Position numbers and translations under genes: made by a program. A DNA stretch of 35,894 bases from a virus. Positions 2,839-34,567 of this stretch are shown here, one piece after another; within the stretch, counting starts at the first letter, position 1, and each line of letters begins with the position of its first letter. The notes under the pieces were generated by a model, which worked only from the letters and a program-made list of their open reading frames with translations, was not told where the DNA came from and searched no databases. The DNA is taken from the IMG/VR virus record IMGVR_UViG_3300017770_000055, positions 1 through 35,894 of that record. One strand, written 5' to 3'.

Positions 2839-5424
2839 TTAGTTAAGCATGACAGGTAGACCATAAATTTGAGTGGGACCGAGGGCACACCCAAATGCAG
2901 CAAGACCAGTTCCGCACCCATGAGAGAGCAGTCCTGTTGTTACTTGATTAACGATAGCACCGCTACCGCCCGTTACGATCTCACCTATGCCACCTGTTGG
3001 AGTGGACACTAAGGTCATGTGAGCGCCAGCATTAGATCCCGCAACGATGTCTGCCATTCCAGCAGCAGTTTTGGTACCTAGTGACATACGAACATGCATA
3101 GCAGGTGAGACTGATCCCATCGGGGCATCCATGCAGATATCTACAATGGATCCGTTCACCAGACTGTATGAACCAGTAAAGACTGGCATTGTCTGGAAGA
3201 TCGCGATGATGTCCATTCTACCACATGCCAAGAAGGATGTGATCCATGATGCTTCATTCACGATCTCACCAGTTGCCTTGTTTGTGATAGAGGTCGCACT
3301 GGTGTGTACGTCAGGGGCATCAAGGGTGATGCCTGAGATCCCTTTCACTTTAACCTGGTTTCCTTGTAGTGTCAAGTCACCCTGATACGAGATCGCGTGG
3401 TCTCCTGCTTTGGTGGAGGTAGACTTTGCTTCCTTATCACCTGCTTCGATTGATACATTCTTGCCAGAAGCAATCTGAACAGCATTTTCAATAGAATCAG
3501 ATGCTTGCTTAGTCCACTGATTATTGTCCTGACCTAGTGGATTACCACCACCACCTTTTGCCTTAGCACCAGCACCATTAGAAGTGTGCTCGTTAAATGA
3601 TCCTGAAACTTCAAGGTGGAAGTCACCCATCACTTTCAGATAGTAATCACCCTCAATAGTATGAACATGGTTGTTCTTAACATTATGAATAAGGTCACGA
3701 CCAATGATTTGTGTTTCGTTACCAGGAATATTTTGGTGCTCGTTACCTAATTTATCTTGGAAACTAGTGACACCACCAGGACCAGAACGGATACGCTTCT
3801 CTTTACCAGGTGTTGCATCATCAATGTCTCTTGCACCATTCAGGAACAACTTGGTTTCCATTACATATGGATTTAACTTCTGGAAGAACTTATCAAAGAA
3901 GTTTCCACCACTACCTTCCTCACCAAAACTACTGCAATCATCAGAGTCAGAGTTACCACCAGGACCATACAGTCCATCACCAACGTCAGCACACTCGGTG
4001 GTACCAACTAATGGTAACCACCCCTTCGCTTTCGGTTTTCGCGCCTTCCTTCCACAATCAATAAACGATGCAATAATATCAACAATCAGTGCAATGATAT
4101 TAAGAACGTTCGAGAAATTAGTTAACGCTGTAAAATCAATCTCAAAGAACTTACCAACAGAGGTTGCAATCTCACTAATCTTGTCGATAGTGCTGATTGC
4201 TTTGAGAATTTTATTGAAGACCTTAGATACTGCTTTGATTGCTTTACAAATTGCCTTCTGAATATTTTTCAGTGCCTTGGTTACATACTCAGCAATTTGA
4301 TTGATAATTTTGTTAACAATGTCCATGACAAGATCAAATATCCCGTCTACAAAGTCTCCTATCATTCCCATAATATTACCAATAGCATCTAACCATCCAG
4401 GGACAGGTTGACAGAAGATATTCTGAATGATGTTCTTGATCAATGTGATGATAGTAGTGACCACTGCTAGTGGGATGATCTTGGCACCAAATGAAACAAC
4501 AGCATCAATCATCACTCTGATTTGTTGTGCCAGGATCTCCTTAATAGGAGCAACCATACCTGTAACAGCATTAACAACAAAATTAGATACATTACTAATA
4601 CTTTTCAGGATGTTGTTACCTTGCTGAATGTGACCTGAAACAACAGATACCAGACCACCTTCACCATTAGATCCCAATGAACCAATCTGCACACCAATAT
4701 CATTCAACATTCGTGCTAGATCCTTAGAAAAGGAATCACTGGCACCAATAGGACCATGAATACCATCAGCAATACCACCTTCCATTGATGGTGGACCCAA
4801 TGGGTTTGTGTATACATTAAATGGTGCTTCTACTTCTGCTCTACTAATAGCACCACGAGATTGCTCTTCACCACCCTCAGGACCACCAGTAGTAGCACCC
4901 TGATTCTTAACAAATGGATGACCACCTTCAACATCTTCACCTGTCAGAGATTTTCTTTGAGGTGATGTAGTAGCGTACTCATCTTTCTCTGCCTCGGTAT
5001 TATCAGCAATGACAGTCTTACTGACTTCGGTATCTTGACCTTCTTCTCCTCCTGAACCACCACCTTGATTAGTTTTCTTCTTAAATCCACGGAATGCACC
5101 AAGCACACAAGGTAGTTGTGCTTCATCACCATCCATGAAGAAACCCATCACGAATGCACCTACTTGCAATTCGCATGTAGATCCAGCATTCTTGATCTGT
5201 GGTTTATCATTAGGCAACAACACAGTTGCCCACGGTAATACCTCAGTAGGTAAGTCTTCTAGGTAGGTAGAGGATCCATCATCATTAGTTTTACCTTTCT
5301 GATGCCATCCCATGATACGAACTTTGACCCTACCTGTCTGAGCAGGATCTTCTACGCTCTCAACTTCACCAATCCACCAGGAGAAACCATCTCTACCTAC
5401 AAAGTCAGTCTTAGTTCCAAGCAT
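2839..5424 (-). CDS. gp5: gp5-like baseplate hub protein, lysozyme domain not seen (861 aa)
   Basis: The N-terminal ~120 residues (DGFSWWIGEVESVEDPAQ, GRVKVRIMGWH, then LPWATVLLP, a conserved-Gly strand and GAFVMGFFMDGDEAQLPCVL) match the gp5 OB-fold domain that sits at the base of the T4 tail needle. About residues 130-250 are Gly/Glu-rich linker. Residues about 260-465 form a long hydrophobic and amphipathic helical stretch rich in Ile/Val, in the place where T4 gp5 carries its lysozyme domain. Residues about 560-630 (VKNNHVHTIEGDYYLKVMGD) look like the short beta-strand repeats of a needle. The C-terminal 100 residues are Gly/Ala/Thr-rich. T4 gp5 is 575 residues, so this one is enlarged. 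A late-type promoter CTAAATAA is 30 nt upstream, and its ATG touches the cpeT stop. Confidence 0.82.
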   Translation of the reverse strand: MLGTKTDFVGRDGFSWWIGEVESVEDPAQTGRVKVRIMGWHQKGKTNDDGSSTYLEDLPTEVLPWATVLLPNDKPQIKNAGSTCELQVGAFVMGFFMDGDEAQLPCVLGAFRGFKKKTNQGGGSGGEEGQDTEVSKTVIADNTEAEKDEYATTSPQRKSLTGEDVEGGHPFVKNQGATTGGPEGGEEQSRGAISRAEVEAPFNVYTNPLGPPSMEGGIADGIHGPIGASDSFSKDLARMLNDIGVQIGSLGSNGEGGLVSVVSGHIQQGNNILKSISNVSNFVVNAVTGMVAPIKEILAQQIRVMIDAVVSFGAKIIPLAVVTTIITLIKNIIQNIFCQPVPGWLDAIGNIMGMIGDFVDGIFDLVMDIVNKIINQIAEYVTKALKNIQKAICKAIKAVSKVFNKILKAISTIDKISEIATSVGKFFEIDFTALTNFSNVLNIIALIVDIIASFIDCGRKARKPKAKGWLPLVGTTECADVGDGLYGPGGNSDSDDCSSFGEEGSGGNFFDKFFQKLNPYVMETKLFLNGARDIDDATPGKEKRIRSGPGGVTSFQDKLGNEHQNIPGNETQIIGRDLIHNVKNNHVHTIEGDYYLKVMGDFHLEVSGSFNEHTSNGAGAKAKGGGGNPLGQDNNQWTKQASDSIENAVQIASGKNVSIEAGDKEAKSTSTKAGDHAISYQGDLTLQGNQVKVKGISGITLDAPDVHTSATSITNKATGEIVNEASWITSFLACGRMDIIAIFQTMPVFTGSYSLVNGSIVDICMDAPMGSVSPAMHVRMSLGTKTAAGMADIVAGSNAGAHMTLVSTPTGGIGEIVTGGSGAIVNQVTTGLLSHGCGTGLAAFGCALGPTQIYGLPVMLN

Positions 5425-5912
5425 TATGTCAACGTGTGATTTAGGTTCCTGGCATTATTTAGACGATCAAACTGAAACATACCTTCATCGGGAGTTTTAC
5501 CCCAAGCAAAGTCACCAGTTTCTACATTATATCCAGTATCTAGTGATCGATATACATCACCATTGAACTGAATACTACTGACTACCCTAGTATTTCGTAA
5601 GATACATTCATCTTGAACCTCACCAAACCACCATCCATCAAAGTATCCCCATTGTAGATTACATCCTGGTTCGTCAGTACCTACATTATGTGCATGTGTA
5701 ATAACACTATGCTCATCTAGATGCTCTAAGGTTAGATGGTAGTGGCGATATGGTTTATCTTCGCCTTGATAGTTATACCATTGCTTCAATTCTAACACAA
5801 GATCATCAATCTTAGTGTATAAGATGTTAATCTGTGGCCATTTAGTAGGATTAGACTGTGCTTGTTTCTTATTCCTATAATGACCAAGAATCATATTCTC
5901 AAATAAGGTCAT
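5424..5912 (-). CDS. cpeT: CpeT/CpcT-like phycobiliprotein lyase (162 aa)
   Basis: The N-terminus GHYRNKKQAQSNPTKWPQIN reproduces the CpeT family signature (G-x-F/Y-x-N-x-x-Q-A-x-x-N-P), followed by an LELKQWYNYQGEDKPYRHYH strand typical of the family and a lipocalin-like run of beta strands (CNLQWGYFDGWWFG, VSSIQFNGDVYRSLDTGYN). Host CpeT attaches phycoerythrobilin to a phycoerythrin cysteine; phage homologues are known in marine cyanophages and are thought to touch pigment metabolism during infection. At 162 residues it is shorter than host proteins (about 190-200). It overlaps the upstream oxygenase gene by 14 nt and so shares its transcript. Product specificity cannot be read. Confidence 0.8.
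   Translation of the reverse strand: MTLFENMILGHYRNKKQAQSNPTKWPQINILYTKIDDLVLELKQWYNYQGEDKPYRHYHLTLEHLDEHSVITHAHNVGTDEPGCNLQWGYFDGWWFGEVQDECILRNTRVVSSIQFNGDVYRSLDTGYNVETGDFAWGKTPDEGMFQFDRLNNARNLNHTLT
5455..5462 (-). promoter_or_regulatory. Late-type promoter CTAAATAA before gp5
   Basis: Minus-strand CTAAATAA lies in the 3' end of cpeT, 30 nt before the gp5 ATG. It shares the TAAATA core of T4 late promoters and recurs at the same kind of position before gp26 and before the small gene at 27345. Confidence 0.5.
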
Positions 5913-6789: not shown

Positions 6790-8163
6790 CTATTTATTAT
6801 AGGCTGGTAATGAATCTCTGCATAAAAACAGTTCTGTGGTCATTCCTGTGTTAGAATACACATGTTTGACGCCTTTTATGAGGTATTTACCCGAAAACAT
6901 ACGATCTTTTGGCAGTTTATTCTTATTCTTCTGTTGAGATGTAGGTATCTTCACCTTAATTACAGCACCTGCGAACATTCTGGTGTTTCCTGGTACCTTA
7001 ATTGTTAGCGTATGCGTATTTAATAGGTACCAACGTTGAGATGCATATGATGAAGCATTAAGAATACTTGCACTCTCTTCCTCTGCACCACCATCCATAT
7101 TGTTTGAATCCTGCTGTGTCATCTTAGGCAGAATTTTCATTCTGGATCTAGTTGGGTGTAGTTCAAGAAACTCTTCGATTGCTTCGAGATCGTATGGAAA
7201 CTCTTTCTCTAAGGTTGATGCTTTCCCGAACAGTTGTAGGATTTGTGATACCACAGGACCCATTACAGTGCCTTCTGGACCTTCTTCATCGGTAGATGCA
7301 CCTGAGTTTGGTAATGTACTCATTGTGGGTGCTGCCATCACAACACCAAAGGTTGTTGTTTTGTAGATACCATTCCTAAGTTTTTCTAATTGATTAGCAC
7401 GATCAGGATATTTAATACTCTCAATCCTATTCATATCTGCTACTGGATCATTACTATTCACATTTTTCTGTCCATAAATGAATTCATTTATGGCATTTTG
7501 CTCACATAGCATATCAATCGATGCAAAATTATATCCATGCTTATTCTGCCAGAACAAAAATCCTGCTTGCTTCTTAGAAGTTCCTTTCTTACCAGTCTTA
7601 CTATTCTTACCTTTACCTACTCTGGAAACTTTATCAGTTAGATACGATATAGCATCAACAGGTCTCCAATTAGGGCAGATCACATTCATTGGAGTGTGTG
7701 CCTCAACGAAGATATCTTTGTTAGGTATCTTTAAATGCTTCTTCAACATCTCCTGAACAAGATCTGGTTTTCCATTCTTCACACCAAACATACCGAATGC
7801 ACGGTTTGCTTCATTGAAGTACATCTGCTCTGGCGCAAAGTGTAGGATATACATCTTTGCTCTTTCTGATTTCAGAACAGAACCAATCTTATACATCTTG
7901 AAGGTTGCTTTACATCTACCTTCCTTCTTTCCCTCCTCCTGACCAGCGAACGTGGAGAATTCAATATCCAGCATCTCAGTACCAAACAATCTGGTATCTA
8001 AATCTGTGGAATCCAGAATACCAACATCCAATCGAATGAATGGTGAATCAATCGATTCAAACCAAACAAATTCACTAATGATACTTTTAATGTCAAGTGG
8101 TTGATTATCACCACGTAGATGTAAATCTGCTTTGGTTAGTTTATAAGACTTAGTGTCTGCCAT
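6790..8163 (-). CDS. Baseplate hub-type structural protein, gp27-like (457 aa)
   Basis: A 457-residue protein (MADTKSYKLTKADLHLRG) with an N-terminal beta region (FVWFESIDSPFIRLDVGILD, FGTEMLDIEFST), a middle domain with SYLTDKVSRVGKG and AGFLFWQNKHGYNFASIDML, and a C-terminal strand set ending FSGKYLIKGVKHVYSNTGMT-TELFLCRDSLP. That last pattern (binding strand, V-x-H, then T-x-L-x-L-x-R-D) is the ending commonly seen in hub proteins of the gp27/gpD/VgrG N-terminal type. Its position between tape-measure-like genes and gp5 fits gp27. It overlaps the upstream gene by 1 nt. Sequence identity to T4 gp27 is not obvious, so the call is structural inference. Confidence 0.5.
   Translation of the reverse strand: MADTKSYKLTKADLHLRGDNQPLDIKSIISEFVWFESIDSPFIRLDVGILDSTDLDTRLFGTEMLDIEFSTFAGQEEGKKEGRCKATFKMYKIGSVLKSERAKMYILHFAPEQMYFNEANRAFGMFGVKNGKPDLVQEMLKKHLKIPNKDIFVEAHTPMNVICPNWRPVDAISYLTDKVSRVGKGKNSKTGKKGTSKKQAGFLFWQNKHGYNFASIDMLCEQNAINEFIYGQKNVNSNDPVADMNRIESIKYPDRANQLEKLRNGIYKTTTFGVVMAAPTMSTLPNSGASTDEEGPEGTVMGPVVSQILQLFGKASTLEKEFPYDLEAIEEFLELHPTRSRMKILPKMTQQDSNNMDGGAEEESASILNASSYASQRWYLLNTHTLTIKVPGNTRMFAGAVIKVKIPTSQQKNKNKLPKDRMFSGKYLIKGVKHVYSNTGMTTELFLCRDSLPAYNK
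6791..6798 (-). promoter_or_regulatory. Late-type promoter AATAAATA
   Basis: Minus-strand AATAAATA overlapping the last codons of the gp27-like gene and 25 nt before the ATG at 6765. One base differs from the T4 consensus (A for the first T). Confidence 0.45.
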
Positions 8164-11100
8164 TACGCTATGCTAACAGGTTGGTTAAAGATATCCGATG
8201 TAATCCCAAACCTAGGTCTGGCATAATCATTTGCTGGTATTATATAGGGTTCACTACTACCACCACCGCCTGATGGAGCAGCAGCAGCAACTTCGTCATC
8301 ACTACCACCCTGAGGAGGTAAGGTAGCAGCAGAAAGACCACTACCTTCTTTTGCTTCTGCTGCTGCATCATCTTCCTTCTTCTGCATTCCTGCTAGAAGA
8401 TCTGCACCAAATGTTTTATCACTAGGTGAAATGCCACCATCACCATCCATTGCTGATGCATCTGATGCATACTTCTGCAAGAGACCCACCTTGCTACCGA
8501 AGTTCTCCATGACACTTTCCATGGTGACAGGTTTCTTTTGTTTTGCATCACCACCACTTGTATCTCCACTACCTGTTGATGGTTCAGTTGCACTCAAAGT
8601 ATCTGCTGATGTGCCCTGTGAAGTAGCACTCACACCATCATGAGCACCCCAACCCATACCATCAAAGATCTTTTGTTTACCATCCTTCATGACGATATCA
8701 CCAGTCTGATATTTCTTATTAGGATCAAACTTAGGAATACCACCTTTCTTCACTTGCTTCAATGCTGTCATGATCTTGTCAGGAGTCATTGCACTGCTTT
8801 GACCTGGATAATGGAACTTACCATCCATATTAGGTAGTGACGCAAACTCCTGAGATAATCCTTGCATGAATTCTCTATCAGTCATCTTACCCGCTAACCA
8901 GGATTCTGCTCCACGCGCTTTTAAGTTTGCCTCAATAATAATCTTATCTTGATTAGCAGCATTGTATAGATCTTTATCTGGATCTAAACCTGCCTTTCTT
9001 GCTCGTTCAGCAAGGAAACGTGGAAGTTGTTGATACTTACCTACTGCACCTGATGCCTGACCAATAACCTGAGAAATGGTCATCTTAGTAGCACCTGGAA
9101 GAGTGGTACTAGGATACATCGCTTCATAATTACCACCAGATTCTTTACCAGCAACCAGATTCAACAACGGTGCCCATTTACCACCCGAAGAGAATCCATC
9201 CATGGCACTAGCATCTGATGCATAGTCTGTCAACATCCCAGTGGATTTACCAAAGAAATCCATAATTGCACCAGTGGACTTATATTGTGCCTCTTCCTGT
9301 GTTGCACCCGCCCCAGGGGACGCGCTAGACACCCCTGAGGGGGATGTAGAGGTGGATCCACTAGGACTGGATACAGTTGTCTTTGCTCCCTTGACTGGTG
9401 CTACTGATCCTGATGATTCTGCCACGGTGGAATCACCACCCATAAATCCTCTCGCCTTAGCGCGAATGATATTACCACCAGATCCTTTCTCTCCGTTCTT
9501 AGTGAGGTGCCAGAGATCCCAACGTGCTCCATCACCACCCCATGCCGTAGGACCATAGTTATCATTGCGAGGTAGTTGACCATCTTTACCAGATGCTGCC
9601 TCAGCATGAGTCATCACATTCTTAACATTAATATCATTAGGAGACCACCCTCTGTTCTTTGCAATATTAGCAATCTCTTTGGACATTGAAGTGACTTGAT
9701 CATCACTAGGCCAACGATAATTACCTGCCCCACCTGACATCGCGGCGAGAGACAATCCAATACCTGTACTATTTCTTAAATATGTGTGTGCAACACCACC
9801 TCTTTGATCATAGGGGTGTGCTCGATATACACTACCATCACCTTGAATGATACCGTGATACTTTCCTTTCTGCTTAAAGTTACCACCACCAGCGGTCCAG
9901 TGCAAGAACATCTTGCCACCTTTCGCCATCCTATCCATTCCAGAAAGACGATTCTCTTCCTGTGAACCATCACGACGGTGATTCTTTGTGCCAGATAACT
10001 TACCACCCTTAGCAAATGCAGGGAGTCCATAACCACCCGCTTTCGCCTGCTGCATTCTCATGCTAGTCAGACCATTGCCACCCCTAGTTGCAGGAGTATC
10101 GAATGGTACAACGAATGCATCACCACCACTAGAACGTTTACCTACCCATTCAGTACCATGACCGATGAATGATGTAGATCTGCCACCATCAAGTGATACA
10201 GGATATCCAGATTGAGGACCATTAATCCATCCACCACCTGATGCTTTACCAACTTGACCACCTATTGCTTTACCTTCTAACCTCTCTAATTGTTGTTTGA
10301 TGGGTTTATCTTTACCCAACATCTTCTGAATGAAGTTAAGACTGTCTAACTGCTTCTGCAACTGCTTCTCAGTCTCTTCTTCACCCTTATCCTTCACCAT
10401 ATCATCGACACTTTCCTCAGTAGGATCTTCATTAAATGCACCAGCAGCGGCAGCAACTGCGGTACCTGCTAAGAATGCTCCTGCTACCCAAAGACCTCTA
10501 CCTTTAACAAAGGCAAATATTCCTTTGAACATACTAGTAACACTCTTGAATAGTGTACTAATAAATCCTGAAACACCTTTAACTAATCCACCACTTTTCG
10601 CCAGTTTAAAGAATAAACCAAGACCTAATTTTGCTACGGCAGCAGGAGCAAATATGAGTCCTAATGCTGTAACAAATTTGATGATACCAAATACACCTTC
10701 CAAACTTAATGGATTATCTAAGAATTCTATGAGACCATTGAGTCCCATACTGACCAGGGCACCATAGGTCTCGATAAGAAACTTACCAATAGATTTTATT
10801 GCTTCAAAGAACTTTTTAATTTTCTCGGTGTTCTCAGGATCTCCAAACCACTCCATCACTCCATAAAGGAGTAATGATTTGAAGATACCACCGAACAGTT
10901 GAGCAATCCCTTGGAAGAATCCAAATGTCTTAGCAGCAATTGCTTTACTCTTCTCAGCAATTTTGCTCTTACCTTTACCTTCTTGCTTTGCTTCTGCTTT
11001 CTTATCTTGTTCTAACCCTTCTGCTTTCTTATCTTTACGTTGCTGATCTTTGAGAAGTTTCTTCTCATCTATCATCGCATCTTTACGTTGATCAAGGATA

Positions 11101-11339
11101 CCTTGCTGTAACGAAAGAGTTTGTGAATAAAAATTCTTGAATGAGGCACTCATGTCCTCAACTAGAATGGCAATACTATTGGTAGTCGCACCAAGACTGT
11201 TGACTGCTTTGATATTTTTAACAAAACCTACTGTTGGTGAAGTGATTGTCTTATCACCAATCTTCACAGTAATTCCACCCTTACCAGTAGTGGAAGGGGG
11301 TGTTACATACTTATATAATCTTGCTTTGGTTTCTGCCAT
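8163..11339 (-). CDS. Tape-measure-like tail protein with amidase and lysozyme-like domains (1058 aa)
   Basis: Residues about 60-135 are a charged coiled coil (Lys/Glu/Gln rich). Residues about 140-310 hold several hydrophobic helices, as in tail tape-measure proteins. Around 475-600 is an N-acetylmuramoyl-L-alanine amidase (Amidase_2) domain: MFLHWTAGGGNF with the first zinc His, YHGIIQGDGSVYRAHP, VAHTYLRNSTGIGLSLA, and MTHAEAAS with a later ligand. Around 720-830 is a lysozyme-like muramidase domain: LVAGKESGGNY with a catalytic-type Glu, SGAVGKYQQLPRFL, and NQDKIIIEANLKARG. Two copies of a YASDASAMDG motif flank this half. The N-terminal half is paralogous to the gene just upstream. Likely role: tail length and wall penetration. 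It starts directly after the upstream stop. Confidence 0.72.
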   Translation of the reverse strand: MAETKARLYKYVTPPSTTGKGGITVKIGDKTITSPTVGFVKNIKAVNSLGATTNSIAILVEDMSASFKNFYSQTLSLQQGILDQRKDAMIDEKKLLKDQQRKDKKAEGLEQDKKAEAKQEGKGKSKIAEKSKAIAAKTFGFFQGIAQLFGGIFKSLLLYGVMEWFGDPENTEKIKKFFEAIKSIGKFLIETYGALVSMGLNGLIEFLDNPLSLEGVFGIIKFVTALGLIFAPAAVAKLGLGLFFKLAKSGGLVKGVSGFISTLFKSVTSMFKGIFAFVKGRGLWVAGAFLAGTAVAAAAGAFNEDPTEESVDDMVKDKGEEETEKQLQKQLDSLNFIQKMLGKDKPIKQQLERLEGKAIGGQVGKASGGGWINGPQSGYPVSLDGGRSTSFIGHGTEWVGKRSSGGDAFVVPFDTPATRGGNGLTSMRMQQAKAGGYGLPAFAKGGKLSGTKNHRRDGSQEENRLSGMDRMAKGGKMFLHWTAGGGNFKQKGKYHGIIQGDGSVYRAHPYDQRGGVAHTYLRNSTGIGLSLAAMSGGAGNYRWPSDDQVTSMSKEIANIAKNRGWSPNDINVKNVMTHAEAASGKDGQLPRNDNYGPTAWGGDGARWDLWHLTKNGEKGSGGNIIRAKARGFMGGDSTVAESSGSVAPVKGAKTTVSSPSGSTSTSPSGVSSASPGAGATQEEAQYKSTGAIMDFFGKSTGMLTDYASDASAMDGFSSGGKWAPLLNLVAGKESGGNYEAMYPSTTLPGATKMTISQVIGQASGAVGKYQQLPRFLAERARKAGLDPDKDLYNAANQDKIIIEANLKARGAESWLAGKMTDREFMQGLSQEFASLPNMDGKFHYPGQSSAMTPDKIMTALKQVKKGGIPKFDPNKKYQTGDIVMKDGKQKIFDGMGWGAHDGVSATSQGTSADTLSATEPSTGSGDTSGGDAKQKKPVTMESVMENFGSKVGLLQKYASDASAMDGDGGISPSDKTFGADLLAGMQKKEDDAAAEAKEGSGLSAATLPPQGGSDDEVAAAAPSGGGGSSEPYIIPANDYARPRFGITSDIFNQPVSIA
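8442..8516 (-). repeat. YASDASAMDG motif, copy 1
   Basis: Encodes 25 residues beginning SVMENFGSKVGLL and ending YASDASAMDG. It is one of three copies of the same motif found in the two tape-measure-like proteins. Confidence 0.75.
9195..9269 (-). repeat. YASDASAMDG motif, copy 2
   Basis: Encodes 25 residues beginning AIMDFFGKSTGML and ending YASDASAMDG, immediately before the lysozyme-like domain of the 1058-residue protein. It resembles copy 3 most closely. Confidence 0.8.
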
Positions 11340-14300
11340 TTACTGTGTGAGCAGGGGAGATGATGCGGGACCAGAGTTACCGCCACCACCACCACCAGCA
11401 TTGACTGTCTTAGTCTTGATAACTGGTTGCACTGCAATCATCATATCAGGTTTAGCGGGTTGCTTATCTCTACGTACCTTTGCAGTAGATAGAGATTTTA
11501 ATTTCTCTGCTTTTGTATTTATGCTAGAAGGTGCAGTGGTCTTGGACTTTGCTGCATCATTGATTTTAGTAGCATATGCAGCACCATCAGCAACAGGACC
11601 AATGTTAGTCTCTGATTTTGGTTTGAGACTTTCAGCATATGCACCACCATCAACAAGAGGTCCTATACCATTCAACGGTGTCTTTGGCATACTTGTGGAT
11701 GTTGGTATAGGACTTGGTGGCATTCCTGAACCATCCATTGCTGATGCATCTGATGCATACGACCCCAATATACCAGCAGACTTCTTAAAGAAATCTACAA
11801 TACTACCAGTTGATCTATATTCTTGCTGTGGTGTTGCACCACCCTTATCACCACCACCACTGTTGTCACCTGTTTTAGCAGTAGATCCACCACCACCTGT
11901 GTTACCACCACCAGCATCGCCAGATGCAACATAAGATCCAGCACCATCGGTACTACCAGAACCACTCAGATTCTCCCAGTGCCATGCTTCATGTCCATCA
12001 GGATTGTCTGTTTCATATCCTGGTATCTGACCAAAACCAAATTTGCCTGCATTCTTCCTTAACCATTTATATGATGCATTAGTGTACCAAAGGTCAACTG
12101 CTTTACCTAAACCATGATTAGATGTTCCTGGATATGCAGCAGTACCAGGTCCTAATTGATCATAAAGTTGCTTCTGCTTATCATATGTTCTATATGATGA
12201 GTTGATTCTAAAATGAGTTCCCATCTTGAATCCAGACTCTGATGCTGATTGCATCATTGCCTTGAACTGTGGTGCAATTCCCTTAGCAAGTTTATGACCA
12301 CTACCAATAGATACTAGATCTTCATCAGGTAGTTGTCCATTGACAGTACCACCCTTAGCAAATTTACCCCAATCGGAAACAGGTGTCTTTGCAGTATCTT
12401 TCCGTTTCAGAATAACAGGATCTACAAATCTCTTAGTTCCTTGGTTGTGTGCGCGAATAGCACCACCCTTTGCCATCTCGGGAAGTTCTGGTGGTGTAAT
12501 CTCTGCCGTGCCATCACCATCATTCTCAGCGGCACCCATCAATGCCTCCATACCAGGCATTTCACCATTAGGATCACGTACAAGTTTCCTCTGTGGAAAA
12601 TCACCCCCAAGTTGCTTAGCAATTGGATCATCTATATCTGCTAGACCAGTCTTAGCAAGCAAACCAAGTAGTTGCTCTCCTGCCCACTCACCAGCGAATC
12701 CACCAGCAGCACCAGTAATGAAACCAGGAACACCACCAAATGGAGCACCAATAGCAAAACCAGCACTATATCCTAATAAACCACCTAATGCTTTCAGTAT
12801 AGCGTTGATAGGTGACTCACCAAATGCACCATAATCTAACAATGCCATGACAGAGGCAATCAGTGTATCAATACCACCAATCTTCATGCTGGATTTCGCA
12901 GCACCAAGAAACTCTCGCATGGTCTTGAACCCAGGATTCTTAAATCCTGATGCCAAGAAACTAACAACAGATTTTCCTGCCGTCTTTACCTGTTGTCCTC
13001 TTGGTAACTCAGCAAACTCGGCAATCTTCTTTGCCTGAGGGTTCTTCTCTAATATAGGTTTGATGAAGTTTTTGACTTTTGTAGTTACCTTTGCAGCAAG
13101 TGCCTTAGGATTCTTTGCCATTTCGACAACATCACCAAGACTCTTCGCCGCTCTCTTACCAAAGTCCCAGATGCCTTGACCCATACCCTTGACACCATCA
13201 ATCATGGCACCCGCACGAGCACCAAACCAATTATTAAGTCTGCCTACCTGCTTTAATGCAAAAGTGCCACCCTCTTTGAGTTTTGACTTAGCAACAGCAC
13301 CCGCATCGAGAGTACCAGACCAGATGTTTCTAAGAGTACCTACGACACCCTTGTTAGTTGCTGCTGCTTCTGCAACCTCATCACCAAGACCCATCGCTTG
13401 CTGGGTTGCCTGCTTACGTGCCTGTTCAAGTTGAAATGGTGTTTTAGGTGTTGGTTTTACAGCAGGTGTTGGTGGTTTCTTGAATAAACCATTGATACCA
13501 GTCGCTGCTGCTGTAAACTTTTTAGTAATCTGACTACGAAGAGCCTTGATTCTTCTAAGTCTCTTCGCTTTCTTTATATCTCTAAGACGCTGCTTCGATG
13601 TTCTACCATCTCTACCAATTCTCTTACCTTTCGGTTTTTTTACCTTAGGTCCACACCCCATGGAATCGGCAGCGTCTACCGCCTTACCGAGACCAAACAT
13701 AAATTTGACATCACTTAGCAACTTCCATGGCATTAGGATGCGTGATCCAATATGGATTGCAGCGAATCCCGCTAAGATTTTAAGGACACCAAACATCTTA
13801 TCGAGACCATTCCCGATCATACCCTTATCAGGGTCATATCCAAATACGTCAGTTATACCATCCAGAACTGTACCAACACCCCAACGGGTGAACGTTGATG
13901 CAAGATTCCAGACACCCTTAAAGAAATTGAATAACTTAATTATCTTTTCTTTATTCTTTTCATCACCTAACCAGTCCATCACCCCCATCGCAATCGGGAT
14001 GGCAACTAACTTCATCAAACCACCCATTAGGACGGCCATTGGTTTCAGCAGTGCTTTCAACCACCCAAATCTAGATTTCTTCTCTTTCTTACCTTCTTCT
14101 AGTCCTGCCTTCTCTTCACCTTTCTCATTCAGAGATTCTTGCTTCTTCTCTGCTAACTTATCTTGCTGTAAACCTTTCTTCCTACCAAGTGCGTCAGTCT
14201 TTGCTTCAATTATCTTCTTTCTATGCTCACTCTCTTCCGTCGATATATCTATCTCTTCTTGCAAGAATCCTACTGTGGACTCTTGATACATTTCAACTAG

Positions 14301-14456
14301 TGTTTTAAACTCTGTAAGTTGTACACCAATATTTGTTACAGCACCACCCATACGATTTTGGGCAATGGTCATTTTTTTAAATACCTTGCCCAAATCATCA
14401 GAACCAGTCATTTGACTGGGACTGACCGTAATATATTTTCTAAGAGTTGCTGCCAT
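11340..14456 (-). CDS. Tape-measure-like tail protein with VanY-type (M15) peptidase domain (1038 aa)
   Basis: Starts MAATLRKYITVSP; residues about 50-125 are coiled coil, 130-260 are hydrophobic helices with VMDWLGDEKNKEKIIKLF, which aligns with VMEWFGDPENTEKIKKFF in the 1058-residue neighbour. Residues about 520-620 are Gly/Ala-rich and hydrophobic (GGLLGYSAGFAIGAPFGG). About 700-830 is a D-Ala-D-Ala carboxypeptidase-type M15 domain: INSSYRTYDKQKQLY, GTSNHGLGKAVDLW with zinc His and Asp, and HEAWHWE with the third zinc ligand. One YASDASAMDG motif follows at about residue 903. It directly follows the gp26/gp51-like pair, the usual place of a tape-measure gene. The T4 equivalent, gp29, is 590 residues and has no such domain. 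Confidence 0.7.
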   Translation of the reverse strand: MAATLRKYITVSPSQMTGSDDLGKVFKKMTIAQNRMGGAVTNIGVQLTEFKTLVEMYQESTVGFLQEEIDISTEESEHRKKIIEAKTDALGRKKGLQQDKLAEKKQESLNEKGEEKAGLEEGKKEKKSRFGWLKALLKPMAVLMGGLMKLVAIPIAMGVMDWLGDEKNKEKIIKLFNFFKGVWNLASTFTRWGVGTVLDGITDVFGYDPDKGMIGNGLDKMFGVLKILAGFAAIHIGSRILMPWKLLSDVKFMFGLGKAVDAADSMGCGPKVKKPKGKRIGRDGRTSKQRLRDIKKAKRLRRIKALRSQITKKFTAAATGINGLFKKPPTPAVKPTPKTPFQLEQARKQATQQAMGLGDEVAEAAATNKGVVGTLRNIWSGTLDAGAVAKSKLKEGGTFALKQVGRLNNWFGARAGAMIDGVKGMGQGIWDFGKRAAKSLGDVVEMAKNPKALAAKVTTKVKNFIKPILEKNPQAKKIAEFAELPRGQQVKTAGKSVVSFLASGFKNPGFKTMREFLGAAKSSMKIGGIDTLIASVMALLDYGAFGESPINAILKALGGLLGYSAGFAIGAPFGGVPGFITGAAGGFAGEWAGEQLLGLLAKTGLADIDDPIAKQLGGDFPQRKLVRDPNGEMPGMEALMGAAENDGDGTAEITPPELPEMAKGGAIRAHNQGTKRFVDPVILKRKDTAKTPVSDWGKFAKGGTVNGQLPDEDLVSIGSGHKLAKGIAPQFKAMMQSASESGFKMGTHFRINSSYRTYDKQKQLYDQLGPGTAAYPGTSNHGLGKAVDLWYTNASYKWLRKNAGKFGFGQIPGYETDNPDGHEAWHWENLSGSGSTDGAGSYVASGDAGGGNTGGGGSTAKTGDNSGGGDKGGATPQQEYRSTGSIVDFFKKSAGILGSYASDASAMDGSGMPPSPIPTSTSMPKTPLNGIGPLVDGGAYAESLKPKSETNIGPVADGAAYATKINDAAKSKTTAPSSINTKAEKLKSLSTAKVRRDKQPAKPDMMIAVQPVIKTKTVNAGGGGGGNSGPASSPLLTQ
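11730..11804 (-). repeat. YASDASAMDG motif, copy 3
   Basis: Encodes 25 residues beginning SIVDFFKKSAGIL and ending YASDASAMDG, in the C-terminal part of the 1038-residue protein. The last ten residues are identical in all three copies. Confidence 0.8.
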
Positions 14457-14635
14457 TAGAGGGAGTTCTTCTGTTTAGATCTTTCTCGTTCTTCTTCTTG
14501 GAGGTATGCCAAGAGCAAGTTAGTATAAACTTCTCGTTCCCAAGGTATCATGGTTTCCAACTCAGCGAGTGAATACTTATGATGATGCATTAAGGCGAAG
14601 TTAGTCTTGTAATAATTTTCAAGACTACTATGCAT
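14456..14635 (-). CDS. gp51-like small ORF, likely frameshift partner of gp26 (59 aa)
   Basis: A 59-residue ORF from an ATG at 14633-14635 to a TAA that overlaps the next gene's ATG (TAATG). The product begins MHSSLENYYKTNFALMHHHK and continues YSLAELETMIPWEREVYTNL before a charged tail. In T4, gene 51 (hub assembly catalyst) directly follows gene 26, and this position and the IPWEREVY-type sequence fit the short gp51-like proteins of cyanophages. It lies in the -1 frame relative to gp26, with no stop between the gp26 slippery heptamer and its ATG, so it may be made mainly as a C-terminal extension of gp26 rather than alone. Its own ATG has no clear ribosome site. Confidence 0.6.
   Translation of the reverse strand: MHSSLENYYKTNFALMHHHKYSLAELETMIPWEREVYTNLLLAYLQEEERERSKQKNSL
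14602..14627 (-). other. Stem-loop downstream of the gp26 slippery site
   Basis: Minus strand TAGTCTTG, ten-nt loop AAAATTATTA, CAAGACTA: an 8-bp perfect stem. It begins 19 nt after the heptamer, farther than the usual 5-9 nt of a frameshift stimulator, so a stimulating role is unproven. Confidence 0.4.
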
Positions 14636-14640
14636 CAGGG

Positions 14641-15342
14641 CTATGCGAAAAAAGAAGCGAGTCCTTCAAGTGTAACAGTATTCACAACTTTGGTCTTAGG
14701 ATTCTCAACATCGAACTCATGCACTAGTTTAGGCATGGTATCGAAGAATTGTTGAATCATACCAAACTGTTCATTGTTCATCTGACCAAGGAAATCCTTT
14801 GCTTCATTCTTAGTGAATGAATCATAGGTCTCTTCACCTTCATATACTTTCTTGATGCAACTAGCAGCAAGATCAAACACATCATCAATATCAGGTTCGT
14901 CTTTCATGTTTCGATCGACGAATGCTTCGAGAGCAGGATACTTCATCTCAATTTTGACAGTTTCATTCAGTTTGATAATCTTTTTGTGTTCCTTAGGAAC
15001 GATTACCTCAACATCTTCAAGGTTGATAGCAACATCAACTTGGGTTTCACCATCATCTTGACATGTGACTTTGAATTCACTGACTTCACCAACTGCCTTG
15101 GATCTGATCTTCAAGAATAGATATTCAATCTCAAATGTTGCAAGATTATCAACAGTTTTTAGATTAGTACACGCCTTCAAGATAGTCTTGACTGCTTTGA
15201 ACATCTCCTTCTCGTTCTGAGTTTCCATAGCGAGATAAAGTAGTTTCTCCTCTTTTACAAGGAAAGGTCTATACGTGACCTTTGTTCCACTGATGGGCAT
15301 TTTGCACTCATAATCAGGGACAACAAGAGTAGGAAGTGGCAT
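14641..15342 (-). CDS. gp26: gp26 baseplate hub subunit (233 aa)
   Basis: MPLPTLVVPDYECKMPISGT, then VTYRPFLVKEEKLLYLAMET and TLKACTNLKT-type helices match the T4 gp26 baseplate protein family (T4_baseplate), which acts in building the central hub. T4 gp26 is 208 residues, so length agrees. The protein ends EGLASFFA. The last codons contain U UUU UUC in the zero frame, a canonical -1 slippery heptamer, and the -1 frame runs without a stop into the gp51-like ORF, giving a possible fusion of about 295 residues. A late-type CTAAATAA box is 20 nt before the ATG. Confidence 0.85.
   Translation of the reverse strand: MPLPTLVVPDYECKMPISGTKVTYRPFLVKEEKLLYLAMETQNEKEMFKAVKTILKACTNLKTVDNLATFEIEYLFLKIRSKAVGEVSEFKVTCQDDGETQVDVAINLEDVEVIVPKEHKKIIKLNETVKIEMKYPALEAFVDRNMKDEPDIDDVFDLAASCIKKVYEGEETYDSFTKNEAKDFLGQMNNEQFGMIQQFFDTMPKLVHEFDVENPKTKVVNTVTLEGLASFFA
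14647..14653 (-). other. -1 ribosomal frameshift slippery heptamer T_TTT_TTC
   Basis: In the gp26 reading frame the codons are TCT TTT TTC GCA TAG. The heptamer T TTT TTC fits X XXY YYZ. After a -1 slip the frame continues CGC ATA GCC CTG ATG, joining the gp51-like ORF in frame. The site is only one codon before the gp26 stop. Confidence 0.65.
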
Positions 15343-16125: not shown

Positions 16126-16592
16126 TATCTACTCCAAATAACACTACTAGGTACATCAATGTAACGACCAGCAACATCCATTGTGAATTGCTCCAATGGT
16201 AGTGGTACTTTCATTTCTTTTAGATCAATAGAAGGCACAGTTTTAATATTACCTGCACTTGACATAAAGTATTTATGATGGCAACGCATAGGATAAGCGA
16301 CGGATCCCCCACCCCATGATCTAGCAATACTTGTTCTTGTAGATGGTCTTAGATAATGTAAATTACCACCAGAGAATTGTTTCTTAGGTAGATCTACATC
16401 AGTTACCAATACCATAGGGAATTTATCATAATACTGCAATCCCTCAGTTTGTGCAGAATATGAAAAAAATATAACATCACCTACATTGAAACCTCTGGAA
16501 TCTTGTAGTCCAAACATGAACTGGGATCGATACCATTCTTTGGATTGCCTGCTACCACCAGCAAGATCTTTGACATCGTTGAAGATACTCAT
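16125..16592 (-). CDS. Conserved T4-like hypothetical protein (155 aa)
   Basis: Contains YRSQFMFGLQD, GDVIFFSYSAQTEGLQYYDK-type sequence, FPMVLVTDVDL and GGNLHYLRPSTR: the combination of YYDxFPMVLV and a G-N-L-H-Y-L-x-P box recurs in proteins next to the head-completion gene in T4-like phages, but I know no assigned function. It overlaps gp4 by 4 nt upstream and the tail-tube-fold gene by 1 nt downstream. A structural or assembly role is likely from context only. Confidence 0.6.
   Translation of the reverse strand: MSIFNDVKDLAGGSRQSKEWYRSQFMFGLQDSRGFNVGDVIFFSYSAQTEGLQYYDKFPMVLVTDVDLPKKQFSGGNLHYLRPSTRTSIARSWGGGSVAYPMRCHHKYFMSSAGNIKTVPSIDLKEMKVPLPLEQFTMDVAGRYIDVPSSVIWSR
16270..16277 (-). promoter_or_regulatory. 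Possible late promoter CATAAATA
   Basis: Minus-strand CATAAATACTT inside the 155-residue gene, about 145 nt before the tail-tube-fold ATG. It is one base from consensus, but intragenic and far from the start, so weakly supported. Confidence 0.3.
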
Positions 16593-17023
16593 ACCTTTAA
16601 TTCGTGTTCGGTCAGTATCATAAATTTCATTCTTCTATCAAGACAATACTCTTTCGCCGCTTTCCACTTAGCATCATTCACAGCATATGTCTTCACTTCA
16701 CTAATATATCTTTTAGTTATTCTCTTAGACTTCTTCGGCGGTAAGGTTTGTGCAGCGGGTTTAACCTCAATGATGTACTTTTCAGTCTTGCCAGTTTTAG
16801 TTCGTGCTCGGACATAAAAGTCTGGAAAATAACGATGGGGACGGTTATCGACAGGACTGATATATGGAATGACGATCTCTTCACTACCCCATTCAAGAAC
16901 GTTCTCATTCTTATCGCACCACATCATGAACTTTCTTTCCCATAAACTTCTATAAATAATATTTGTGGGATCACCTTTATACTTATGAGTGTTTGACGGT
17001 CTAAACTTTCCTGAATAACTCAT
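16589..17023 (-). CDS. gp4: gp4 head completion protein (144 aa)
   Basis: MSYSGKFRPSNTHKYKGDPT, then NIIYRSLWERKFMMWCDKN, ENVLEWGSEEIVIPYISPVD and RPHRYFPDFYVRAR are hallmarks of T4 gp4 (also called gp50), which finishes the filled head before tail joining. The VIPYISPVD...RYFPDF core with I-E-V-K resembles a nuclease-like fold in this family. The open frame extends ten codons upstream, but the conserved start is MSYSGKF at 17023. That ATG shares the bases CATG with the divergent gp48 start, so neither gene has its own upstream space. No clear Shine-Dalgarno is present. Confidence 0.9.
   Translation of the reverse strand: MSYSGKFRPSNTHKYKGDPTNIIYRSLWERKFMMWCDKNENVLEWGSEEIVIPYISPVDNRPHRYFPDFYVRARTKTGKTEKYIIEVKPAAQTLPPKKSKRITKRYISEVKTYAVNDAKWKAAKEYCLDRRMKFMILTEHELKV
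16951..16958 (+). promoter_or_regulatory. Late promoter, exact TATAAATA, for gp48-gp53
   Basis: Plus-strand TATAAATA inside the gp4 coding region, 63 nt before the gp48 ATG. It is an exact consensus match and the only late box seen on the plus strand, which fits the only two plus-strand genes lying just downstream. Confidence 0.75.
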
Positions 17024-18071
17024 GCCACAAAAGAATAAAAAAGCAAATAACAATCCTCAAACTGCCAAGAAGAATGGTGGATTGGGAAAGATTGGTAGTG
17101 ATGGTGCTAGACTTATTTATCCATTACAGTTACCTCGTGGTCCGAGAAAGAGGGGAGACGGGTCAATATCTAACCGAGCCACAAGTTCTACACGTAGTAT
17201 GGACTACTTGAAGTTCTCTATCTACGACTCGGAGAAGAATAATCCCTATACTTATGCTGGTCAACCTGGTAAGGGTGGCGGTAAAGCAAAGACAGGTACA
17301 GCAGATCAGATCATGAAGTCTGTGTACTTATACTTACCACATGATTTGAGTGAGACATTCAGCACTACTTATGACAAAGCAACACTAGGACCATTCGGTG
17401 CTGCTGTTGTGGAAGCAATGAAGAATAATGATATGTCAAGTATTGTTGATAAGGTGCAGGCAGGGGCAAATGCAGCAAAACCAGAGATTGCGTTTAGTGC
17501 AGTCTCTGGTATCTTCAATGGTTTGAATAATTTTGCTGGTACTGATGGCAGTCTGGATAAGAACCAGATGGCAGCATTAGCAAAGGGTAAGGTATTCAAC
17601 CCATACCAAGAGACAGTGTTCAAAGGTGTTAACTATCGTTCTCACAACTTTACCTTTGATATGGCACCACGTAATGAAAAGGAAGCAGAGAACATTATCA
17701 AAATTATTCATGCACTCAGGGATGCAATGCTACCTGGTACAAGTGGTGAGGCAGCAAGATGGTTAACTATCCCACGTTTCTTTAAGGCAGAACTGATTAG
17801 ATACAATCCAAATGGTAGCAGCAAGACTGCAAAGGGTGGAGGTGAGATATCTCGTCCTGAAACATTGTCAACACTACTTACATATCCTGTAAACATGGTG
17901 TTGACTAACATGCAAGTCAATATGACACCATCAGGACAGAATAGTTCAATTAGAGGTCTTGCTGATGATGGTACAGACTTCGGTCCTGCATCATACAGAA
18001 TGACATTGACATTTGATGAGACTGCGTTCATCACTCGTGATATGTACAAAAACGGCGGTAAGAACAAATGA
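17022..18071 (+). CDS. gp48: gp48 baseplate tail tube cap (349 aa)
   Basis: The N-terminus is basic and low in complexity (MPQKNKKANNNPQTAKKN), followed by LIYPLQLPRGPR. The mid-C region FKGVNYRSHNFTFDMAPRNE and AENIIKIIHALRDAMLPG corresponds to the T4 gp48 stretch that reads FTWDLTPRS with an IINIYQYF helix. T4 gp48 is 364 residues, in agreement. It caps the baseplate and nucleates the tail tube with gp54. It is transcribed away from gp4, sharing its CATG start, and overlaps gp53 by ATGA. The exact late promoter TATAAATA is inside gp4. Confidence 0.8.
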   Translation: MPQKNKKANNNPQTAKKNGGLGKIGSDGARLIYPLQLPRGPRKRGDGSISNRATSSTRSMDYLKFSIYDSEKNNPYTYAGQPGKGGGKAKTGTADQIMKSVYLYLPHDLSETFSTTYDKATLGPFGAAVVEAMKNNDMSSIVDKVQAGANAAKPEIAFSAVSGIFNGLNNFAGTDGSLDKNQMAALAKGKVFNPYQETVFKGVNYRSHNFTFDMAPRNEKEAENIIKIIHALRDAMLPGTSGEAARWLTIPRFFKAELIRYNPNGSSKTAKGGGEISRPETLSTLLTYPVNMVLTNMQVNMTPSGQNSSIRGLADDGTDFGPASYRMTLTFDETAFITRDMYKNGGKNK

Positions 18072-23002: not shown

Positions 23003-23682
23003 CTATTGATACCCTCCTGAAAATAACGGTATTCTTTGATCCATTTGCAGAGAGTATCAATATACGGTATCTTATCATACTTCTCGACCACTTGCATCTC
23101 TCCATTCTCTGCCACAGAGAGGGTCACAAGTTTCTTTACTTCACAACCAGTCAACTCCCAGTACATGTAAGCATACGCTGCTTCCTGTACGAAATACTTT
23201 TTAAGAAAAGATTCTTTCTTCAAAGTACCTGTTGTTTTGAAGTCGATGATTGCTAACTCACCATCAAACTCAGCAATGCAGTCAACACGACCAGCAATGC
23301 ATAGATCAGTAGAATACAAAGGGGCTTCAATAATATGAAGATTGTCGATACGATCAAGAGTCTCACGAGCAAACCCAAAAAGGTACGAGGCAAGACCTTC
23401 GCTTTTCTTAACTTTTTCAATGTTGCCTTTAAGGTAGTCTTCAACGATGCCATGATACTTGGTACCTCTCCATGATGATGTGCGTCTGATCTTTTCTGCT
23501 TCTGTGTACCCAACTCTCTGCTCCCACTTACGGATGCCTTCGATAGATTGATGACCTACGACAGTGGTGACAGATGGATACCAGTTACCATTGGGTGCTT
23601 TATAGAAGCGACCACGTTCACTGGTCCTACTTTCGAGTTCATTGATCTCAGCAGCAGGACCTACATAATTAAATGTTTTCAT
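22999..23682 (-). CDS. RecB/MGME1-like PD-(D/E)XK exonuclease (227 aa)
   Basis: NGNWYPSVTTVVGHQS near the start, then WRGTKYHGIVEDYLKG (the RG-x-x-x-H motif, H77), AGRVDCIAEFDGELAIIDFK with Asp134 and D147-F-K149, and a helix with EAAYAYMYWELTG. This is the active-site order of RecB-type single-strand exonucleases such as MGME1. It probably works in replication, recombination or host DNA breakdown. It is coupled to phoH upstream (1-nt overlap) and to gp33 downstream (ATGA). Confidence 0.78.
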   Translation of the reverse strand: MKTFNYVGPAAEINELESRTSERGRFYKAPNGNWYPSVTTVVGHQSIEGIRKWEQRVGYTEAEKIRRTSSWRGTKYHGIVEDYLKGNIEKVKKSEGLASYLFGFARETLDRIDNLHIIEAPLYSTDLCIAGRVDCIAEFDGELAIIDFKTTGTLKKESFLKKYFVQEAAYAYMYWELTGCEVKKLVTLSVAENGEMQVVEKYDKIPYIDTLCKWIKEYRYFQEGINR

Positions 23683-24434
23683 TAACTAAATCCAAGGTTG
23701 ATTTTACTGACCAGGTACTCACGGACGAGACCAGATCGTACAATATCTTCAATCCCAAACTCAACACAGTCAAATGATGGCATGGTCTGTAAGATCTTCA
23801 TGAAGTCTAGCACACCTGTGCGCTCATTAGATTTAAGCAAGTCCGATTGGTTGTAGTCACCAGAGAAAATAATCTTAGCGTCTTGTCCCACACGGGTGAT
23901 GATTGAATCTAGTTCATGGAAATTCAAGTTGGAGAACTCATCTACGATGATGATACACTGATCAAGTGTCACACCACGAATGAATGATGTAGACCAGAAT
24001 GATACAGTCTCTTGTGCTCTAAGATTATCATAGAGCATTTCAAACTGATTGTCATCTGGCATGGTAAACATGTACTTAACCATGTTCTTGTAAGGAATCT
24101 GATACCGATCACTCTTGTCTTCAAGGTCGCCAGGTAAGAAACCAATCTCTCTTGTAGGAACAAGAGAGCGAACCATGTAGATCTTCTCGTATGGTGTCTC
24201 AGGATCTAGTACCTGCTGCATAGCAAGGTAAAGACTAATGAAAGTTTTACCTGTACCAGCAGCACCGTGCAGAACTAAGTTCTTACCCTCAGCGTAGGAT
24301 TCAAACACTTTCTCCTGATTTTCAGTGAGAGGTTCAATAGTTTTCAGATGATCTAGATTGATTGGTTTCTTCCTACGCATCTGCTTTGCAGTCAGATTTG
24401 TGTTAGGAGTCTTACGCTTACGGGCAGCAGGCAT
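23682..24434 (-). CDS. phoH: PhoH-like ATPase (250 aa)
   Basis: Walker A GAAGTGKT at residues 57-64, after a Q-motif-like ENQEKVFESYAEGKNLVL; Walker B IIIVDEFSNL at about 165-174; sensor-type KIIFSGDYNQSD at about 190. PhoH-like NTPases occur in most T4-like cyanophages; their role in infection is not settled. The N-terminal 28 residues are strongly basic. The start lies 1 nt after the preceding stop. Confidence 0.92.
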   Translation of the reverse strand: MPAARKRKTPNTNLTAKQMRRKKPINLDHLKTIEPLTENQEKVFESYAEGKNLVLHGAAGTGKTFISLYLAMQQVLDPETPYEKIYMVRSLVPTREIGFLPGDLEDKSDRYQIPYKNMVKYMFTMPDDNQFEMLYDNLRAQETVSFWSTSFIRGVTLDQCIIIVDEFSNLNFHELDSIITRVGQDAKIIFSGDYNQSDLLKSNERTGVLDFMKILQTMPSFDCVEFGIEDIVRSGLVREYLVSKINLGFS

Positions 24435-24666: not shown

Positions 24667-24836
24667 TAGTTTTGAGGTAGAGGTGTAGTTGTGAGCACCG
24701 TGGCTGAGGGTTTGGATGCTTCAAAGATCTTCCTGGCCTCAGATGCACAAGCACCCTGGACATTTTCTTTCAGTCTTTTGTTACCTGTACTAGGCAACTT
24801 GTATGTAATCTGATAGGGATACTGTTTCATAATCAT
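24666..24836 (-). CDS. Hypothetical small protein (56 aa)
   Basis: ORF from ATG at 24834-24836 to TAA at 24666-24668, joined by TAATG overlaps to thyX upstream and the 76-residue gene downstream. Product begins MIMKQYPYQITYKLPSTGNK, continues with a helical CASEARKIFEASKP, and ends TTTPLPQN. The pattern (short strand, then a helix holding A-R-K-I-F-E) suggests a compact alpha-beta fold. Function unknown. Confidence 0.7.
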   Translation of the reverse strand: MIMKQYPYQITYKLPSTGNKRLKENVQGACASEARKIFEASKPSATVLTTTPLPQN

Positions 24837-25540
24837 TAGTCAATCTTTAAACAAGGTTGGAGGTCATCTTCATAACTATGGCAGTCGCGATCGGTCTTAG
24901 AGACCCACCCAAGCGCCTCTGAGACGATAGGAAACTTGCACTTGAAGTGACGCTTGCAGAGTTCTGCAATGTCCATGTGCTCCTTCTGAGTACCGTTAGA
25001 GGTACGCAGATTGATGTAATGGATCCATGACCTGAGATTTCCTGTCATGTAAAGTTTAGTCCCTACCGCCAAAGGTAATACAAAACGAGCACACTCTTTT
25101 GCAATACCATCATCAAGCATATTTTGATATAGTTCCATACCATGCTTGAAGTGATCCTGCATGAGGATCTCATACTTCTGAATCAAGAATGGATCTACAT
25201 CATCAATACTATTCTGACGATTCTTATCATCCTGACGACGCAACTCAGGCAAGGCAATCTTATCACCTAGTGCAGACGAGTCAGCATACCGTTGTGAAAA
25301 CTCTTGGAAGCAGAATGAACGGTGCCTCAGGATCTGAGCACCCAGACCGCGAGTCGTTTCAATTTGCAGAGTCATTGATGCTTGCTCGAACACAGACCAG
25401 TGTCCATGTTGAATACAATACTTCAATAGTCCAGCAACCTTTGGGTTATCCTGGTTGTTAGGATTACTTACTCGGGCAATGTATCCAATAGTTTTCTCTG
25501 CATCAGGAGTTGCAGAGATAAAACATACTTGTGGTTTCAT
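24836..25540 (-). CDS. thyX: Flavin-dependent thymidylate synthase ThyX (234 aa)
   Basis: The ThyX motif RHRSFCFQEFSQRY lies at residues 72-85 (RHR, seven residues, S, then RY), preceded by HWSVFEQASMTLQIETTRG. The family makes dTMP from dUMP using FAD, NADPH and methylene-tetrahydrofolate. At 234 residues it is of normal length. Later ThyX features, LPLAVGTKLYMTGNLRSWIH and the Arg-rich LRTSNGTQKEH, are also present. It starts 4 nt inside the small membrane-protein gene and supports phage nucleotide supply. Confidence 0.93.
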   Translation of the reverse strand: MKPQVCFISATPDAEKTIGYIARVSNPNNQDNPKVAGLLKYCIQHGHWSVFEQASMTLQIETTRGLGAQILRHRSFCFQEFSQRYADSSALGDKIALPELRRQDDKNRQNSIDDVDPFLIQKYEILMQDHFKHGMELYQNMLDDGIAKECARFVLPLAVGTKLYMTGNLRSWIHYINLRTSNGTQKEHMDIAELCKRHFKCKFPIVSEALGWVSKTDRDCHSYEDDLQPCLKID

Positions 25541-34559: not shown

Positions 34560-34567
34560 TATTTATC
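34560..34567 (-). promoter_or_regulatory. Late-type box GATAAATA
   Basis: Minus-strand GATAAATA overlapping the purM stop. It differs from the consensus at one base. Transcripts from it would cross the terminator at 34476-34501 before reaching the HExxH gene. Confidence 0.35.

Follow-up and report, generated by a model that had tools for sequence, protein, structure and literature searches.

Sequence evidence that a T4-like cyanophage probably produces short and long forms of a gp26-type tail assembly chaperone by programmed −1 frameshifting

The stretch of DNA analyzed here, called the window throughout, comprises all 35,894 nt of IMG/VR virus record IMGVR_UViG_3300017770_000055. On its minus strand, a gp26-like gene is followed in the −1 frame by a short open reading frame (ORF), and four features mark this junction:

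14641..15342, minus strand: gp26-like gene of 233 aa, putative short form of a tail assembly chaperone (TAC-N), assigned by PF12322 and phrog_150; stop TAG at 14643-14641
14647..14653, minus strand: slippery heptamer T_TTT_TTC, identified from the sequence and its conservation in relatives
14456..14647, minus strand: −1-frame extension of 63 codons (RIALMHSS...KNSL) plus TAA, with phrog_634 and phrog_150 matches; predicted C-terminal domain (TAC-C, 'gp51-like') of a long form
14456..14635, minus strand: 59-aa ORF in the form that annotation would give it, most likely just the C-terminal end of what frameshifting produces

The gp26-like ORF matches PF12322 (T4_baseplate; E=3.7e-66, 223.4 bits against a cut-off of 24.5) and phrog_150 (E=4.6e-71). 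Its 3′ end reads GCT TCT TTT TTC GCA TAG, with one sense codon between the heptamer and the stop, and a −1 slip would give TTT TTT CGC ATA GCC CTG ATG..., which stays open up to the TAA at 14458-14456 and would encode a 295-residue fusion. The preliminary description of this DNA had placed the heptamer at 14647-14653, one codon before the gp26 stop, and had read the −1 frame as stop-free into the 59-residue ORF with a fusion of about 295 residues; both statements were confirmed, on the minus strand and with a length of exactly 295 aa. The extension and the 59-aa ORF match phrog_634 ('baseplate hub assembly catalyst'; E=3.1e-26, profile positions 61-117) and the C-terminal end of phrog_150 (positions 240-276; E=4.3e-4). 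Fourteen in-frame heptamers of the type XXXAAAZ or XXXTTTZ occur among the 48 ORFs of the window. When all in-frame XXXYYYZ heptamers of these ORFs were considered, only T_TTT_TTC of gp26 led to an extension that ran >4 codons beyond the 0-frame stop, namely 60 codons.

Relatives were collected by tblastn or by an N-terminal peptide pattern, and the heptamer was no part of the selection. All 30 IMG/VR loci closely related to the window kept the sequence TTTTTTCGC[AG]TAG and, within the limits of each contig, a −1 frame free of stops. A wider set from the peptide pattern comprised, together with named phages, 105 distinct gp26 genes. Every one of them carries the heptamer directly before the stop or separated from it by a single sense codon, as TTTTTTC in 103 and as TTTTTTT in 2, and the −1 extensions span 54-67 codons wherever the contig does not end earlier. 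The preliminary description had proposed checking related phages for a conserved heptamer and for the absence of a stop before the gp51-like ORF, and this check, once run, held for 105/105 genes. The heptamer is likewise present in 86/86 representatives at <85% nucleotide identity. In all 86, the codon preceding Phe-Phe ends in T and the first Phe codon is TTT, compared to expected frequencies of 0.61 and 0.64, respectively, from codon use in the same genes; the joint probabilities of these choices, 10^-19 and 10^-17, ignore relatedness and hence are overstated. A chance heptamer was rejected, as this is the sole heptamer in the window with a long extension and its conservation in the relative set is complete. 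Judged from these comparisons, conservation of the heptamer is not chance.

The same heptamer is found in Caulobacter phage Cr30 and in phage C48C1, where the T runs are T7 and T8, respectively, and in Cronobacter LPCS28, Aeromonas CC2 (Straboviridae), Stenotrophomonas BUCT608, Vibrio D490, and Vibrio V05. Pseudoalteromonas XG4, whose gp26 is very divergent, has it as TTTTTTA (L140 2501-3250). A Vibrio group (K476, 1.244.A, and K448) shows the same arrangement with CTT TT[T/C] in place of the canonical heptamer, and in K476 and K448 an ATG overlaps the gp26 stop (TAATG). This group may use a weaker or other type of slip, or reinitiation. This pattern of gp26 and a T-like −1 ORF with CTT TT[T/C] and an ATG overlapping the gp26 stop was noted in Vibrio Ackermannviridae-type phages (L042 2100-2303, L138 2100-2294, and L139 2075-2300).

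Two further elements flank the heptamer:

14662..14667, minus strand: internal Shine-Dalgarno (SD)-like GAAGGA, 8 nt 5′ of the heptamer, assessed by a family-wide synonymous-codon test
14583..14637, minus strand: predicted two-part stem-loop (outer helix TGATGCAT/ATGCATCA, inner helix TAGTCTTG/CAAGACTA), assessed by folding energy and compensatory changes

Relatives carry an upstream SD-like GA(A/G)GG(A/G/T), and the best anti-SD octamer lies mostly 6-9 nt before the heptamer. The mean SD-like pairing energy was −6.83 kcal/mol, compared to −5.27 kcal/mol in synonymous resampling of the same residues (z=−9.1, with relatives treated as independent). Codon choice within the element was skewed in the same sequences: GAG encodes the Glu in 56/80 cases compared to 35% in the gene body, and GGG encodes the following Gly in 18/86 (21%) compared to 4%, where the significance of all these codon statistics is overstated because relatives are not independent.

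The stem-loop begins 9 nt past the heptamer and contains the ATG of the 59-aa ORF. Its minimum free energy in the window is −17.1 kcal/mol (z=−4.15). Across relatives, 50-nt stretches downstream of the heptamer gave mean z scores of −2.0 and −2.1 against dinucleotide shuffles, with about half below −2, compared to 0.05 for the upstream stretch and −0.22 and −0.73 for control stretches. The stem sequence varies by lineage while pairing is kept. A consensus fold of the mixed-lineage set was weak because stem registers differ between lineages, and covariation was examined in clade-wise alignments for the same reason. One stem pair in one clade is UA in 10 sequences, AU in 7, and GC in 2. In the clade of the window, 4/8 stem pairs are changed on both sides, which 0/500 shuffles reached, and the compensatory changes fall in the inner helix. 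Slid stem registers scored far lower in both clades. Taken together, the SD-like element, heptamer, and predicted stem-loop are, on this comparative evidence, a dnaX-like three-part −1 signal. As in Escherichia coli dnaX, an internal Shine-Dalgarno sequence, a slippery heptamer, and a downstream stem-loop are combined; however, frameshifting makes the short form in dnaX, whereas it would make the long form here, and the heptamers differ (A_AAA_AAG compared to T_TTT_TTC).

In T4, gene 26 (115802-116428, minus strand) and gene 51 (116479-117228, plus strand) are adjacent, as the preliminary description had noted, but they lie divergently on opposite strands and do not form a co-linear split pair. 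Neither gene contained the heptamer when it was looked for. T4 gp51 matches PF12322 (E=3.9e-52) and also has a C-terminal domain (phrog_150 positions 13-280 of 282; phrog_634 profile positions 2-103), whereas T4 gp26 matches PF12322 alone. The C-terminal domain is common to T4 gp51 and the downstream ORF of the window (phrog_634; phrog_150 positions 240-276 compared to 13-280). The 59-residue ORF had been taken as the counterpart of gp51, and this equation has to be given up, since T4 gp51 consists of a PF12322 domain plus the C-terminal domain and so corresponds to the long form. By these domain matches, T4 gp26 and gp51 are divergent paralogues, and gp51 corresponds to the long form; T4 therefore has a separate gene for each form, and the heptamer phages would obtain both from one gene by frameshifting. 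Thus, the T4 proteins resemble the window locus in their PF12322 domains and in the C-terminal domain that frameshifting would reach, but differ in being encoded by two divergent genes that lack both heptamer and frameshift.

Heptamer phages have one PF12322 gene, compared to two in T4, RB43, Krischvirus, 44RR-type phages, Aeromonas 31, and Lazarusvirus. RB43 encodes gp51 (long) and gp26 (short) in tandem on the same strand, and the PF12322 match of its gp26 starts only at profile position 60 (L142 3001-4294). The two-gene proteins cluster apart from the frameshift proteins (support 93/95) in an unrooted tree with some long branches. A single T-even duplication is compatible with this clustering, in a tree whose direction is open to either reading.

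Three other explanations of the locus were weighed. The 59-aa ORF could be a separate small gene, a stand-alone gp51 translated from ATG 14635, either through a ribosome site of its own or through reinitiation once the gp26 stop has been reached. The position of this ATG, 5 nt past the TAG, is compatible with such a gene, as are the ATGs within 2-6 codons of the heptamer in many relatives, the frequent calling of a stand-alone gp51-like gene in deposited annotations, and the TAATG overlaps in the Vibrio K476 group. However, ATG 14635 has no SD ahead of it and sits within the predicted stem; the first −1-frame ATG falls anywhere from codon 2 to codon 33 among the representatives, and in 17/86 of them no ATG precedes codon 18 of the conserved domain. 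Moreover, the residues ahead of any start, FFR[IVL][AGS][LM], are themselves conserved, T4 carries the same C-terminal domain fused, and a stand-alone gene leaves the invariant heptamer unexplained. An independent conserved start with a ribosome site, which the preliminary description had listed as evidence that would count against a frameshift, was looked for in the 86 representatives and at ATG 14635, and none was found. We consider a stand-alone gp51 gene very unlikely and rejected it because its start position is not conserved and lacks an SD; reinitiation at ATG 14635 is possible as a minor extra source of the C-terminal domain.

That RNA polymerase makes the fusion by slipping within the T run can be entertained because the site is a T6 run, extended to T7 in Cr30 and T8 in C48C1. 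Yet bacterial transcriptional slippage requires longer runs, of about 8-9, and the run stops at six Ts followed by C in nearly all relatives. Moreover, the in-frame XXXYYYZ register belongs to a ribosomal event, as do the SD-like element and the stem. Transcriptional slippage, which we judge highly improbable, was rejected on the grounds that the T run is too short and is capped by C. We give almost no credence to the idea that a Phe-Phe at the end of the protein is the sole reason for the heptamer being kept, with no frameshifting. The Phe-Phe pair is indeed invariant in the alignment, but the synonymous codons used (TTT at the first Phe and a T wobble in the preceding S/A/D/N/G codon) are uniform in 86/86, compared to about 0.6 expected for each, and the −1 frame beyond the stop encodes a conserved protein domain. 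A programmed −1 frameshift that yields a gp26-T fusion like those of tail assembly chaperones, which was the core of the preliminary description, is well supported by the heptamer, its conservation, synonymous-codon selection, and the covarying stem.

Two large genes lie next to the chaperone locus:

11340..14456, minus strand: 1038-aa protein with a VanY domain, candidate tape measure/lysis protein; its start overlaps the stop of the extension (TAATG), and the tape-measure role is suggested by position only
8163..11339, minus strand: 1058-aa protein that carries an Amidase_2 domain and has phrog_1200/2588 matches in common with the 1038-aa gene; putative tape-measure role

The 1038-aa gene directly follows the chaperone locus, and its family matches are of the VanY/endolysin type; no tape-measure family was found among the profile matches of either gene. 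The equivalent of the 1038-aa gene in Vibrio D490 matches tape-measure phrog_58 (E=5.7e-8). By position, the 1038-aa and 1058-aa genes may plausibly be connected with the tape measure. The interval 8163-14456 is occupied by consecutive genes of ~1040-1060 aa with shared family matches and different peptidoglycan-hydrolase domains (VanY and Amidase_2), and these are possibly duplicated tape-measure/lysis proteins. Elsewhere in the window, a gp4-like head completion gene (16589-17053) has a PF08722 match (TnsA-like endonuclease N-terminal domain, E=4.8e-23), and one tRNA-Thr (anticodon TGT) is encoded at 1865-1939 on the minus strand. Genes often carried by cyanophages are also present, namely a CpeT-like gene (PF06206) and thymidylate synthase ThyX (5424-5912 and 24836-25540), PhoH (23682-24434), and AIR synthase (34566-35534).

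The tail assembly chaperones of lambda (G/GT), P2 (E/E′), and HK97 were reportedly treated by Xu, Hendrix and Duda in 2004. The locus resembles these systems in pairing a short protein with a minor −1 frameshifted long form, which is predicted here, in a slippery site just before the stop, and in lying upstream of large tail genes, but its neighbouring tape measure is a candidate and the gp26 of the window has no detectable sequence similarity to their proteins. The 233-aa form was modelled with AlphaFold2 (pLDDT 83.9), and the model matched other predicted gp26 proteins. The highest-probability PDB match to this model was the HK97 tail assembly chaperone 2ob9 (gp13), at a level that is not significant (0.41, E=2.1, 56 columns), and searching PDB sequences with the gp26 profile gave no match.

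We consider it very probable from the sequence comparisons that this is a T4-like cyanophage tail-assembly-chaperone locus, in which a programmed −1 frameshift yields short and long forms of gp26. Most ribosomes would halt at the TAG and release the 233-aa gp26 (TAC-N). Some would slip back one base on T_TTT_TTC, aided by pairing of the upstream SD-like GAAGGA with 16S rRNA and by the stem-loop 9 nt downstream, and would read 63 more codons to give the 295-aa long form (TAC-NC). The two forms would then coat and fold the tape-measure protein in tail or hub assembly, like lambda G and GT. In this scheme, we infer slippage itself, its rate, and the chaperone role.

The abstract of Vladimirov et al. 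2022 is said to name T4 genes 26 and 51 and to report frameshifting conserved in several T4-like groups. As cited by later papers, Vladimirov, Gautam and Davidson (Virology 2022) described poly-T −1 signals in T4-like TAC-N genes (PMC12846349) and T4-like phages in which a short gene and a separate long fusion gene take the place of frameshifting (PMC10885494). The view that no frameshift had been described for the gp26/gp51 pair in T4-like phages was thus mistaken, going by the 2022 work as cited in PMC12846349. Unification of gp26/gp51 with the tail assembly chaperones is supported as a reading but is not new, having been proposed in 2022 according to the same citing papers (PMC10885494 and PMC12846349). 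Our literature search, in which the 2022 paper was known via citing papers, found no paper describing the gp26 frameshift in cyanophages. By its sequence features, the window is a well-supported further member of an already proposed frameshifted chaperone class. We put forward tentatively, at slightly less than even odds, that a complete dnaX-type three-part −1 signal, with an internal SD, T_TTT_TTC, and a stem-loop that changes in sequence from lineage to lineage but stays paired, is common to T4-like phages outside the T-even lineage, that T-evens swapped it for duplicated short (26) and long (51) genes, and that the Vibrio group follows a third, non-canonical route. Both this route and the stimulators may be undescribed.

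Among deposited cyanophage genomes, the C-terminal chaperone part is given as none in S-WAM1 and as 31 aa in P-SSM7 (L032 2202-2393, L034 2301-2396), and as a separate gene in S-ShM2. Strong comparative evidence supports the view that cyanophages make the gp26-type chaperone in two forms by frameshifting, in which case deposited genomes miscall its C-terminal part as truncated, absent, or a 'baseplate hub assembly catalyst' of its own. Clear mutants for a reporter test can be designed from the SD-like and stem-loop elements delimited here. T4 gp51 is needed yet absent from the particle (PMC3004832), and the hub role of gp26 and gp51 has been unclear; the present reading would recast them as short and long chaperone forms, the same proposal that citing papers attribute to the 2022 study.
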